A DNA stretch of 44,005 nucleotides, taken from IMG/VR virus record IMGVR_UViG_3300009151_000125, positions 1-44,005 of that record. The stretch is one strand, 5' to 3'. This DNA is from a virus. Of the stretch, positions 6,100 to 22,578 are shown in pieces. Position numbers and translations under genes: made by a program. The notes under the pieces were generated by a model, which was given only the letters and a program-made list of their open reading frames with translations, searched no databases and had not been told where the DNA came from. Numbering within the stretch: position 1 is the stretch's first letter; each line of letters opens with the position of its first letter.

Positions 6100-7326
6100 A
6101 TGAAAATTAATAAAAACAAAACATTAGAGAGAGTCTTACTAATGATGAAATATGACTTAAATAAAACTTTAAGTGAAAATTCAAATGTGGTTAAAAAAGA
6201 ATTTTCCGAACAATTAAATGAAGCACCTCCAAGAGTAAAACCAATAGCACCAAAAATGAATATAGGTGCTGCAAAAGTTGCAAGAACTTCATCAATTACT
6301 AGACTTAAAAATGCCGCACAAAATGGGCCTTTAAGCGCTGTACAAAGATCTCAATTTGGTAAAGATTTATTACAAAAACAAGTTCAGGTATATGCAAGTA
6401 CTAAATTACCTAATGGGTCATATCCAACAGTTGCTCAACAAAGAGCATATGCAAAACAATTAGTGTCAAATGGTACTATTACAAATCAAATAAATAAAAT
6501 TGCTGGAAAGAATGCGGGAACACCTGGAATTGTAACTACAGGAAACACTTCTAAAAATACAAAAACTCCAACACCAAAAGACGCAGGAATAATAACCCAA
6601 CTTAAACAATCATTTACCGGTGCTAACTGGAAAAAGATTTTTGCATATGCAGTCGGAATTGGAGGACTTAGCGCTGGTGTTTGGTATTTCTTTTTAAGAG
6701 ATACTGCCAATGTTAGTCTATGTTTATTAGATAGTTTAACAGATGAAGAAATTTTACAATTAAATGGTAGTACTACAGGTAATATAACAAGAACTAAAAT
6801 TGGTAATAAAATTGCCGATCTTAATGGAGGTCTTGTTTTTGGATTAGATAATGGTAAAGTAACCACCGGTAATGGAAAATATAAAGGTACCTATTCTTGT
6901 GATGGAAATAATATTAAAGTTGAAATTGCTGGAGCTGTATTTACAATTGTTGGAGGAAATGGTGGTGGAGGAAATGGTGGTGGAGGAAATGGTAGTCAAG
7001 GACAATATAAACAATGTTCTGAAACATTACCAATCGCTATGTATTGTAAAAACTCAACAGTTAGTAGAGTACAAGGATGCTTAAATATTAAACAAGATGG
7101 AGCATTTGGACCTTTAACATCTCAAGCATTAGTAAATAAAGGTGTTGATGGACAATCTATTACTCAAGCATCTATTGATAAAGTATGTGGTGGTGGATCT
7201 AGCGGACAACCCGAACAAGAAAAAGACCCATCAACTGCGTTATCTGATGATTTAAGTAGTCAACCGGCAACAGGAGTATCACAATCTACAACAGTTGCAT
7301 CAACACAAGGTGATCAAAATTTATAA
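6100..7326 (+). CDS. membrane-anchored peptidoglycan-binding protein (probable virion protein)
   Basis: 408 residues. A basic N-terminus carries FSEQLNEA at 35-42. A Lys/Thr/Pro-rich region, one transmembrane helix (about 181-199, VGIGGLSAGVWYFFL), a beta-rich segment with paired cysteines and a flexible GGNGGGG linker follow. A peptidoglycan-binding PG_binding_1-type domain lies at about 316-352 (VQGCLNIKQDGAFGPLTSQAL: the VQ..L...DG.FGP.T..AL signature). The C-terminus is disordered. The domain order suggests a protein that spans the inner membrane or virion lumen and docks on the host cell wall. An alternative in-frame start is the MM at residues 15-16. Confidence 0.75.
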   Translation: MKINKNKTLERVLLMMKYDLNKTLSENSNVVKKEFSEQLNEAPPRVKPIAPKMNIGAAKVARTSSITRLKNAAQNGPLSAVQRSQFGKDLLQKQVQVYASTKLPNGSYPTVAQQRAYAKQLVSNGTITNQINKIAGKNAGTPGIVTTGNTSKNTKTPTPKDAGIITQLKQSFTGANWKKIFAYAVGIGGLSAGVWYFFLRDTANVSLCLLDSLTDEEILQLNGSTTGNITRTKIGNKIADLNGGLVFGLDNGKVTTGNGKYKGTYSCDGNNIKVEIAGAVFTIVGGNGGGGNGGGGNGSQGQYKQCSETLPIAMYCKNSTVSRVQGCLNIKQDGAFGPLTSQALVNKGVDGQSITQASIDKVCGGGSSGQPEQEKDPSTALSDDLSSQPATGVSQSTTVASTQGDQNL

Positions 7327-14788: not shown

Positions 14789-14888
14789 GGTTCGGTAGCT
14801 CAGCTGGATAGTAGCGACAGCCTTCTTGGTCTATATTTTAGTATTACCAAGAAGCTGTAGGTCATTGGTTCGAATCCAATCCGGATCA
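14789..14888 (+). tRNA. tRNA-Arg(TCT)-like, with a 25-nt hairpin inserted in the anticodon loop
   Basis: Acceptor GGTTCGG/CCGGATC, D-arm with GCT/AGC, variable loop AGGTC and T-arm ATTGG-TTCGAAT-CCAAT are normal. The anticodon stem ACAGC (14817-14821) pairs with GCTGT (14854-14858), but the loop between them is 32 nt instead of 7. It contains a perfect 8-bp stem TTCTTGGT (14823-14830) / ACCAAGAA (14846-14853) with a 15-nt loop. Removing 25 nt can leave a normal loop CTTCTAA with anticodon TCT, which reads AGA, apparently the commonest Arg codon here. Whether the insert is removed, or whether this is a decoy or a dead gene, is not known. Confidence 0.75.
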
Positions 14889-18777: not shown

Positions 18778-18849
18778 GGTGTTTGAAGCATTAAGGTGAT
18801 GCACTAGTTTGTGGAGCTAGAAAAGACGGGTCGGTACCGTCCTTACACC
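18778..18849 (+). tRNA. tRNA-His(GTG)
   Basis: Anticodon stem CTAGT/GCTAG with loop TTGTGGA (GTG). An 8-position acceptor includes the His-specific extra G(-1) opposite C73, with two T-T mismatches at the inner end. T-stem GACGG/CCGTC with an unusual loop GTCGGTA. Confidence 0.85.
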
Positions 18850-21800: not shown

Positions 21801-21989
21801 TTAAGACTTTTTATTTTCCTCCATCTCAATTCTGTTTTTTAAATCTAATTCAATAATTTTATTTTTCCACTCTTTCCAAATCTCAAAATCTTGTAAATTT
21901 TGAATTGTCTTCTCATGTAGTAAAACAAATCCCTCAGGAGCAACTCCTGAATATCTATTCTTAACTATCTCATTTATTGATATCTTCAT
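21801..21989 (-). CDS. hypothetical protein, 62 aa
   Basis: A small charged protein: MKISINEIVKNRYSGVAPEGFVLLHEKTI, then a helix (QDFEIWKEWKNKIIELDLKN). The start overlaps the 3' end of the HAD phosphatase gene by 20 bp in another frame, so translation is probably coupled. No family recognised; no membrane helix. Confidence 0.55.
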   Translation of the reverse strand: MKISINEIVKNRYSGVAPEGFVLLHEKTIQNLQDFEIWKEWKNKIIELDLKNRIEMEENKKS

Positions 21990-22578
21990 TTAATTTTTTG
22001 ATTATTTTATCTTTTAACCCTGTTTGTTTTAATCCTTCTCCACTCTTAGTTAAAAAGAAATTGTCAACTGGTTTTAATCCACCTTGTCTTAAATCCAAAT
22101 CGTCAATTGCGATGAATTCAGTTACATTATAATCCTTAACAAATTTATCAACCTCAAAAAATCGATTTCTTTCTAAATCAAAAGATGATTTTAAATTTTC
22201 GGTTACAAATTTAGGTGAACGGATTACACCATTTTCCTTAAAAATAGTGTCTAATTGTGATAAATCCCAATGTAATTTCCAATCTGAACTAAGAACGATG
22301 ACCGCTTCAGTTTTCTCTAATATTTCGTTAAAAACTTTAACACATCCTTTATCAAATCCGTACGGTACTCTTAATTCTTTCGCCCAATCATTGTTTTGAC
22401 TAAATTTATTTCGGTTTCCCATAAATTGTTTATCGGTAGCCAATACACCATCTATGTCTAAAAATATTACTTTCATATTTGTTAATTTTTGTATATGTTC
22501 ACTAATAGTAAGTTCTTCACATTTCCAACACCATTCATTATCTTGTGTGTCCCAAATATGTCTATCGCATTTTGCCAT
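21970..22578 (-). CDS. HAD-family phosphatase with N-terminal zinc-ribbon-like motif
   Basis: 202 residues. The N-terminus has CDRH (C4, H7) and CWKC (C17, C20), a possible zinc site. The HAD domain begins at ~36: FLDIDGVL (nucleophile D41 and acid D43, motif I), VLSSDWK (motif II) and AIDDLDL (motif IV). The pattern fits HAD phosphatases, including the kind fused to 'Swiss army knife' RNA-repair proteins, so a role in RNA end or nucleotide dephosphorylation is possible but unproven. The longer start is favoured by a TATCTTTA box exactly 12 nt upstream; an internal ATG at the HAD start is the alternative. Confidence 0.78.
   Translation of the reverse strand: MAKCDRHIWDTQDNEWCWKCEELTISEHIQKLTNMKVIFLDIDGVLATDKQFMGNRNKFSQNNDWAKELRVPYGFDKGCVKVFNEILEKTEAVIVLSSDWKLHWDLSQLDTIFKENGVIRSPKFVTENLKSSFDLERNRFFEVDKFVKDYNVTEFIAIDDLDLRQGGLKPVDNFFLTKSGEGLKQTGLKDKIIKKLNEDINK

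Follow-up and report, generated by a model that had tools for sequence, protein, structure and literature searches.

A recurrent hairpin insert in the anticodon loop of phage tRNA-Arg(TCT) genes, probably a mini-intron

The stretch of DNA analysed here (the window), a phage contig of 44,005 bp from IMG/VR, carries a tRNA-Arg(TCT) gene whose anticodon loop is interrupted by a 25-nt hairpin. This raises the question of whether the insert is an intron that is taken out of the RNA. tRNA introns are an archaeal and eukaryal trait and not a bacterial one, self-splicing group I introns aside. An earlier note on this DNA had proposed a tiny intron, with a decoy for anticodon nucleases or a pseudogene as alternatives. 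The best matches of the window's terminase in named collections, at 25–27% identity, were from uncultured huge phages, a Microcystis phage and Flavobacterium phages.

The gene occupies positions 14789–14888 of the + strand. Rfam model RF00005 scored 45.3 bits over this interval (gathering 29), and the intron-aware caller ARAGORN, run with introns allowed, reported tRNA-Arg (tct) with a 25-nt intron; with introns disallowed it made no call for this gene. The acceptor stem (GGTTCGG/CCGGATC) has 7 pairs, two of them G-U, the variable loop is AGGTC, the T-arm has 5 bp, the discriminator is A and CCA is not encoded. By sequence and fold, the anticodon stem is ACAGC (14817–14821, +) paired with GCTGT (14854–14858, +) over 5 bp. 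The arms had all been described as normal, which holds for the acceptor, anticodon and T arms but not for the D-stem, which has one additional base (GCTC / G-T-AGC); the same oddity occurs in an intron-less phage tRNA-Arg (L083). Besides its cloverleaf, the gene has tRNA-Arg(UCU) features in the GGA of its D-loop (A20) and its TCT anticodon, A20, C35 and U36 being arginine identity elements. Elsewhere in the window, a weak twelfth tRNA (18779–18849; RF00005 32.4 bits) was not called by ARAGORN.

The anticodon loop measures 32 nt (14822–14853), and sequence and fold confirmed the perfect 8-bp hairpin reported in it. It opens with C32 U33 U34 C35 U36 (CTTCT, 14822–14826, +), continues with the 25-nt insert, our proposed mini-intron (14827–14851, +; insertion point by analogy with Aeromonas phage phiAS5, below), and closes with A37 A38 (14852–14853, +). 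The 5' arm of the helix (14823–14830, +) is made of U33–U36 and insert positions +1 to +4, the 3' arm (14846–14853, +) of insert positions -6 to -1 with A37 and A38, and 8/8 pairs are perfect. The insert has AG at its 3' end, which base-pairs with C35 and U36. In the fold, only a bulged C32 separates the hairpin from the anticodon stem on which it stacks; the energy is -32.5 kcal/mol (z = -3.93), with 0/200 shuffles equally stable. Excision of the 25 nt leaves CTTCTAA, as the earlier note had worked out, and this is the loop of the intron-less phiAS5 allele. The same tRNA gene is present in a 110,935-bp IMG/VR contig (99.98% identical over 12,855 bases compared) and, with an apical loop 1 nt longer, in a 165,509-bp contig (L088); assembly error was ruled out by this recurrence.

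Pattern scans and synteny showed that phage tRNA-Arg(TCT) genes carry such a loop in 16 different sequences, the window's included (L116 is counted among the hairpin versions by its 3' part only). Apart from the window, the carriers are 24 public phage records, several being nearly identical. The window's own family consisted of four contigs, all known before, and a search for further members added none. Scanning viral contigs for tRNAs with consensus D-arm, consensus T-arm and a long gap gave 78 contigs, among which L021 held a second tRNA-Arg(TCT) with a very different hairpin at the same position. In one scan for CTTCT loops, 16/40 stretches were hairpin tRNA-Arg(TCT) genes, and the remaining 24 failed to parse so. 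Searches for cultured relatives of L163 and L111 gave no match, and named phages matched L134 partially only; they also matched L159 only partially, and the three matches examined show ordinary or no tRNA-Arg. A pattern scan of the genomes of 84,980 species, whose pattern forces GCCTTCT...AGAAGC and would let inserts of other make escape, returned 13 stretches; 9 do not parse as tRNAs and 4 are tRNAs, all archaeal. On these comparisons the window insert is no private accident.

Related phages L021 and L107/L134 have an identical 26-nt insert at the same locus within very different tRNA bodies, which suggests that the insert is mobile, or that recombination exchanges tRNA halves on either side of a conserved anticodon arm. 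G003 and G004 also differ by a swap of tRNA bodies, at a locus lacking the hairpin. Entire tRNA-Arg bodies are replaced at one phage locus between relatives (L172 and L173; L021 and L134).

Cultured Aeromonas phages allowed the insertion point to be located. Eight of them (PX29, which is L084, AsFcp_1, AsFcp_2, AsFcp_4, Ah1, avDM12-TAAL, Aeh1 and phiWae14) have the hairpin at one locus, in five distinct insert sequences, and the tRNA-Arg adjoins gp57B. At the orthologous locus phiAS5 has the intron-less allele CCTTCT|AAGC, and PX29, Ah1, Aeh1 and relatives are 26–28 nt longer. By comparison with the phiAS5 allele, U36 and A37 flank the insertion (site 36/37), and its removal leaves CTTCTAA. 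The earlier note had located the insert at the site of archaeal and eukaryal introns, and this had to be corrected, as their canonical site is given as 37/38 (PMC4090602), one base away from that of the phage inserts. Existing annotation of the locus is uneven: in GenBank the hairpin gene is labelled tRNA-Glu (105 nt) in Aeh1 and tRNA-Lys in PX29, there as two joined pieces, as if intron-bearing. No tRNA is listed at the locus in Ah1, avDM12, AsFcp_4, phiWae14 and AsFcp_2, and the AsFcp_1 record is without annotation.

Two further observations concern this Aeromonas locus. The elements AACACATTG / CAATGTGTT flank the tRNA-Arg (L093–L098, L100, L101), with or without the hairpin, and could extend the acceptor stem. 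The gp57B product (L093 2123–2620, L097 2129–2623, L096 2092–2589) is named 'RNA ligase' in RefSeq; it matches Pfam Acb1 (anti-CBASS) at 114–123 bits, and the ligase annotation looks wrong.

Alignment of the locus across related phages, which the earlier note had proposed, revealed one recurring plan in addition to the intron-less allele. Inserts are 24–30 nt long, with one of 38. The pairs U33-A38, U34-A37 and U36/-2 can form in 16/16 Arg versions and 35/-1 in 15/16, the exception being L086 (C-A mismatch), whose minimum-energy fold departs from the plan. A single bulged base C32 is seen in the fold of 15/16, and the helix runs in register from U33-A38 upward into the insert. Anticodon stem and hairpin thereby fold as one rod of about 17–22 pairs with some mismatches. 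Without the insert the loop is again 7 nt long and contains U33, and the versions parsed retain their acceptor, D, anticodon and T stems (L116 by its 3' part only).

Pairing within the insert was counted in 14 representatives, leaving out near-duplicates (L088, Aeh1, L129, L116), identical copies and L192 (shifted register). From +1/-3 to +8/-10, 92/112 cells were paired (49/56 at +1 to +4, 43/56 at +5 to +8), a value reached in 0/20000 shuffles of the 3' letters (mean 54.7; the shuffles ignore relatedness). For 11 representatives, 71/88 cells were paired in register, compared to 30–43/88 in four slid registers. Across families, the 14 loci compared, a set that lies outside L159, L163 and the Aeromonas loci, have in common only the tRNA or short pieces. 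Within the window's family, TGGT/ACCA in the window corresponds to CAGT/ACTG in L118, two stem pairs being altered on both sides with apical bases nearly unchanged. Internal loops begin at about +5 in the window's own family, PX29 and L163. In-register pairing was 0.67–1.0 in 16/16 phage CTTCT candidates and 0.33–0.50 in four archaeal tRNA-Arg(TCT) introns, and a structural scanner run on reversed sequence gave no long-loop candidate. Comparison thus shows one conserved structural plan with covariation of the insert pairs; free decay of the hairpin in related phages, an outcome by which the earlier note would have been refuted, is contradicted by this covariation.

The same scanner, applied to 284 loci, returned 443 distinct ordinary tRNAs and 64 long-loop candidates. 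Together with the matches listed from an isotype-free scan, it brought out a tRNA-Thr(TGT) (L256; Rfam 60.4 bits) and a tRNA-Ile(TAT) (L235; 60.5 bits). The last two insert bases are AC and AT, respectively, as against AG in Arg: the 35/-1 pair is G-C in Thr, A-T in Ile and C-G in Arg, and 36/-2 is T-A throughout. Among the 9 Arg versions whose AG was not forced by the way they were discovered, 35/-1 pairs in 8/9 and 36/-2 in 9/9. The Ile and Thr cases stand outside these nine because helix score guided their choice. They were picked from 44 long-loop candidates not starting CTTCT, of which the remaining 42 do not fit the plan. Shuffled inserts gave a mean of 0.018 such cases, and two cases arose in 0/5000 runs. 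All exact cases (Arg, Thr, Ile) read A-starting codons with U34. The comparison shows that the 3' end of the insert is matched to the anticodon in three isotypes. A tRNA-Glu(TTC) (L192 8548–8647) has a 12-bp anticodon-loop hairpin with its register one base off, which would not produce the same stagger, and is possibly a variant of this class.

Several other odd tRNA-like elements were met. Those of one separate family (L015 11033–11126; similar in L026, L028, L033, L045, L051, L063, L068 and L080) have a 46–59-nt anticodon region, contain in most cases a CAGCAAC- or CTGCAA-like motif and lie mostly on large phage contigs. Others (L013, L030, L055, L072, L075; L032, L069, L074; L017, L046) combine a normal acceptor and T-arm with a 'GGTGAAGGACCAAATGCC'-type middle. 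Identical tRNA-like genes in L023, L038, L039, L048 and L049 have a 41-nt anticodon loop that folds as a hairpin (-9.5 kcal/mol), not in the U33-A38 register of the phage inserts. In L156, L157, L161, L085 and L092, phage genes resembling tRNA-Arg(TCT) have a variable arm of unusual length and no anticodon-loop insert. The 138-kb viral contig of L159, also bearing a hairpin tRNA-Arg, encodes a selenocysteine tRNA (6412–6498; RF01852, 59.8 bits).

A pattern search for intron-less tRNA-Arg(TCT) genes, which would overlook deviating T-loops, found none in 16/18 hairpin records, including 11/11 of those of at least 100 kb. The two records with an intron-less gene beside the hairpin copy belong to one family (contigs of L116 and L129). 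Hairpin-less comparison records had an intron-less tRNA-Arg(TCT) in 4/4, two having been picked in that knowledge. The hairpin gene thus appears to be the sole tRNA of its kind in most carriers examined, which argues for a working product and, through it, for removal of the insert. Within the 30 ORFs of the window, AGA accounts for 224/322 Arg codons.

Taken as a whole, the insert is probably best explained as a mini-intron, and we infer with good confidence that its removal occurs in the RNA and yields an active tRNA. The gene would be transcribed with its insert, the RNA cut between U36 and A37 and the halves sealed to tRNA-Arg(UCU), which would read AGA, the commonest Arg codon in the window phage. 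The substrate would be a rod composed of the anticodon stem, in most cases a bulged base 32, the pairs U33-A38, U34-A37, 35/-1 and 36/-2, and the insert pairs. The two junction cuts would lie two bases apart, because the insert sits at 36/37 and U36 is paired to -2, and each product would carry a 2-nt 3' overhang. RNase III-type enzymes leave 2-nt 3' overhangs; the stagger here follows from site and pairing and is no independent proof of RNase III. We tentatively name host RNase III as the cutting enzyme, at rather less than an even chance. A cut of the RNase III type would give 5'-phosphate and 3'-OH ends, directly joinable by a phage Rnl1-type RNA ligase, and this ligase, where present, has about an even chance of being the sealer.

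The earlier note had pointed to an RNA ligase, a polynucleotide-kinase-like protein and a phosphoesterase in the window, and Pfam and PHROG matches bear out their presence. All three lie on the - strand: the first 106 aa of a T4 Rnl1-type RNA ligase with a KLDGSLGI motif, cut at the window edge (1–318; PF09511 43.4 bits, phrog_562 82.6 bits); a P-loop kinase, polynucleotide-kinase-like (564–971; PF13671 38.7 bits, phrog_2071 ATPase 128.3 bits and, weakly, phrog_505 polynucleotide kinase 28.8 bits); and, in the same cluster, a calcineurin-like metallophosphoesterase (1349–1993; PF00149 27.7 bits, phrog_547 146.5 bits). The ligase copy in the near-identical contig (G001 38830–39381) has an open frame of 364 aa. 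A HAD-family protein of the Pfam 'Swiss Army Knife RNA repair' type is encoded at 21970–22578 (- strand; PF18143 76.5 bits). The ligase is a candidate sealing enzyme, the kinase a possible end-healing enzyme and the HAD-family protein a possible 3' phosphatase.

Hairpin carriers were not clearly richer in this ligase. PF09511 was found in 13/15 hairpin records of at least 100 kb and in 11/25 tRNA-bearing controls of that size (p = 0.0095), many of the 15 being relatives; counted by lineage, the figures were 5/7 and 11/25 control records (p = 0.39, not significant), and the association was rejected as proof. Two large hairpin contigs, both possibly fragments, gave no match: G006 (170 kb, that of L134) for PF09511, PF09414 or RtcB, and G037 (147 kb, that of L163) for PF09511. 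Smaller hairpin contigs, which are fragments, were mostly without PF09511. RtcB was found in 0/15 records, 14 of them hairpin carriers, and was rejected as the phage sealer. The archaeal/eukaryal tRNA-splicing endonuclease (PF01974) was found in 0/17 hairpin phage records; the control search for it was positive in 4 archaea of 14 genomes.

We compared the inserts with known systems. Like archaeal bulge-helix-bulge (BHB) introns and eukaryal nuclear introns, they are short, lie in the anticodon loop, would restore a 7-nt loop on removal and would need cutting and ligation; in eukaryal tRNA introns, too, the anticodon pairs with the intron. In contrast to the BHB, in which a 4-bp helix lies between two 3-nt bulges, one on each strand, the phage helix is in register with usually one bulged base (32), and no BHB motif was present in the folds of 16/16 Arg versions, L086 included. 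The archaeal tRNAs L141, L144, L148 and L149 begin CTTCTAA, compatible with 37/38, and are without the in-register helix. Unlike in archaeal and eukaryal splicing, the carriers, phages of bacteria, are without PF01974 in the 17 records searched, and an archaeal-type intron was ruled out by anatomy and by this absence from the phages. Bacterial group I tRNA introns share the anticodon-loop site and an exon ending in U, but their core takes about 200 nt or more, whereas the phage inserts have 24–38 nt, and searches of the window and 14 loci with the Rfam group I models gave no match.

The intervening sequences (IVS) of 23S rRNA are, like the phage inserts, hairpins on a stem, and double-strand-specific cutting is plausible for the inserts, whose two-base offset is geometrically compatible with excision by RNase III as in the IVS. 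The IVS are described as 100–200 nt or more, with the rRNA left broken (PMC8708148, PMC4990558), whereas a tRNA would need resealing. T4 Pnkp and Rnl1 restore a tRNA-Lys cut in the anticodon loop (PMC3400036); there, as in our proposal, Rnl1 seals an anticodon-loop break, and the same ligase family occurs in many carriers, but the T4 enzymes mend host damage and the phage enzymes would act in removal of an encoded insert.

Novelty had been claimed for the insert and is borne out in part. The literature searched, with most subscription journals outside its scope, held no paper describing the present hairpins, but introns in phage tRNAs have been reported before, as predictions in Lak megaphages, where they are called 'enigmatic', with enzymes unknown (PMC6784885, Devoto 2019); this was the one report on phage tRNA introns in the literature searched. 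Five of the 33 tRNAs of Lak-A1 were compared, and the two longest are without an in-register helix from U33. One of these (111254–111357; L166) has an 8-bp hairpin between D- and T-arm in another placing and possibly belongs to the 'enigmatic introns' of that report. The anatomy of the phage inserts fits no known intron class tested; a kinship with the Lak introns, judged from five Lak-A1 tRNAs, is possible.

Other explanations were weighed against the proposed course. The same intron could be removed by a metal-independent nuclease of the anticodon type, whose two cuts would leave 2',3'-cyclic phosphate and 5'-OH ends for repair by phage kinase, phosphatase and Rnl1. The kinase-like protein and the ligase are neighbours at the window's left edge, two phosphoesterase-like proteins lie elsewhere in the window, and T4 Pnkp/Rnl1 restore PrrC-cut tRNA-Lys (PMC3400036). 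Against this, no candidate nuclease was found, PF01974 being absent from all 17 hairpin records searched. Moreover, both junctions sit in helix in the versions folded (L086 excepted), which disfavours an anticodon nuclease because such enzymes cut single-stranded loops, and we regard this route as unlikely. If instead the hairpin stayed in place, the tRNA would be armoured or a decoy, hiding its anticodon from host anticodon nucleases or soaking them up, with no decoding. Two records do hold an intron-less copy beside the hairpin one, and it has been proposed that phage tRNAs escape tRNA-cutting defences through altered anticodon loops (PMC10264068, in which a term search met no mention of insertions or introns). 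This alternative, which the earlier note had named, is weakened by the 16/18 hairpin records that have no other tRNA-Arg(TCT) by pattern, though AGA dominates in the window, and by the anticodon matching: there is no evident reason for a decoy's insert to complement positions 35–36 with its final two bases in Arg, Ile and Thr, or to lie at the very point from which excision gives back a 7-nt loop. With at least 8 extra pairs, furthermore, the anticodon arm should not fit the ribosome. We grade a decoy as improbable.

Group I introns have an exon ending in U and an intron ending in G, and the Arg versions resemble them in having U36 before the insert and, in 15/16, G at its end. Together with the identical 26-nt insert in the differing tRNA bodies of L021 and L107/L134, this could point to a mobile DNA palindrome homing into the anticodon site and tolerated via RNA repair, or to the relic of a group I intron retained at the same site. 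A length of 24–38 nt is too short for a group I core, however, no group I match above gathering was obtained in the window or 14 related or hairpin-bearing loci, and the final base is T in the Ile insert and C in the Thr insert; we consider this origin very improbable. As for a pseudogene or a chance palindrome, the authors of the Aeh1 genome counted 3 tRNA pseudogenes and no Arg UCU tRNA (PMC1524935), but the stems kept in parsed versions, the covariation of the insert stems and the reversed-sequence control rule out decay and chance, and the pseudogene alternative of the earlier note, contradicted by covariation, is hardly credible.

The mini-intron reading therefore stands in part as first put forward: comparison supports it strongly, through the plan, the intron-less allele, the compensatory changes and the three isotypes, and corrects its site, its case for the ligase and its claim to be the first of its kind. 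The insert is real, recurrent and structurally conserved, and very probably represents a mini-intron class that has not been described. That it forms a new class of spliced introns in the full sense, with 24–38-nt hairpins at 36/37 in phage tRNAs for A-starting codons with U34 (Arg UCU, Thr UGU, Ile UAU), an RNase III-type staggered cut guided by anticodon-intron pairing and sealing by a phage ligase, is as yet a doubtful proposition. If true, dependence on a phage ligase would confine tRNA activity to infected cells and would keep the anticodon hidden from host nucleases until splicing. The hairpin insert accounts for the annotation gap at the Aeromonas locus, from the tRNA-Glu of Aeh1 and the two-piece tRNA-Lys of PX29 to the lack of any entry in several relatives. 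Carriers include cultured, long-sequenced phages (Aeh1, PX29, Ah1), which makes the proposal immediately testable. A small class recurring in phages, with a site and a structural rule of its own, would extend the known kinds of RNA splicing by one, and phage RNA ligases could gain a routine job beyond repair.
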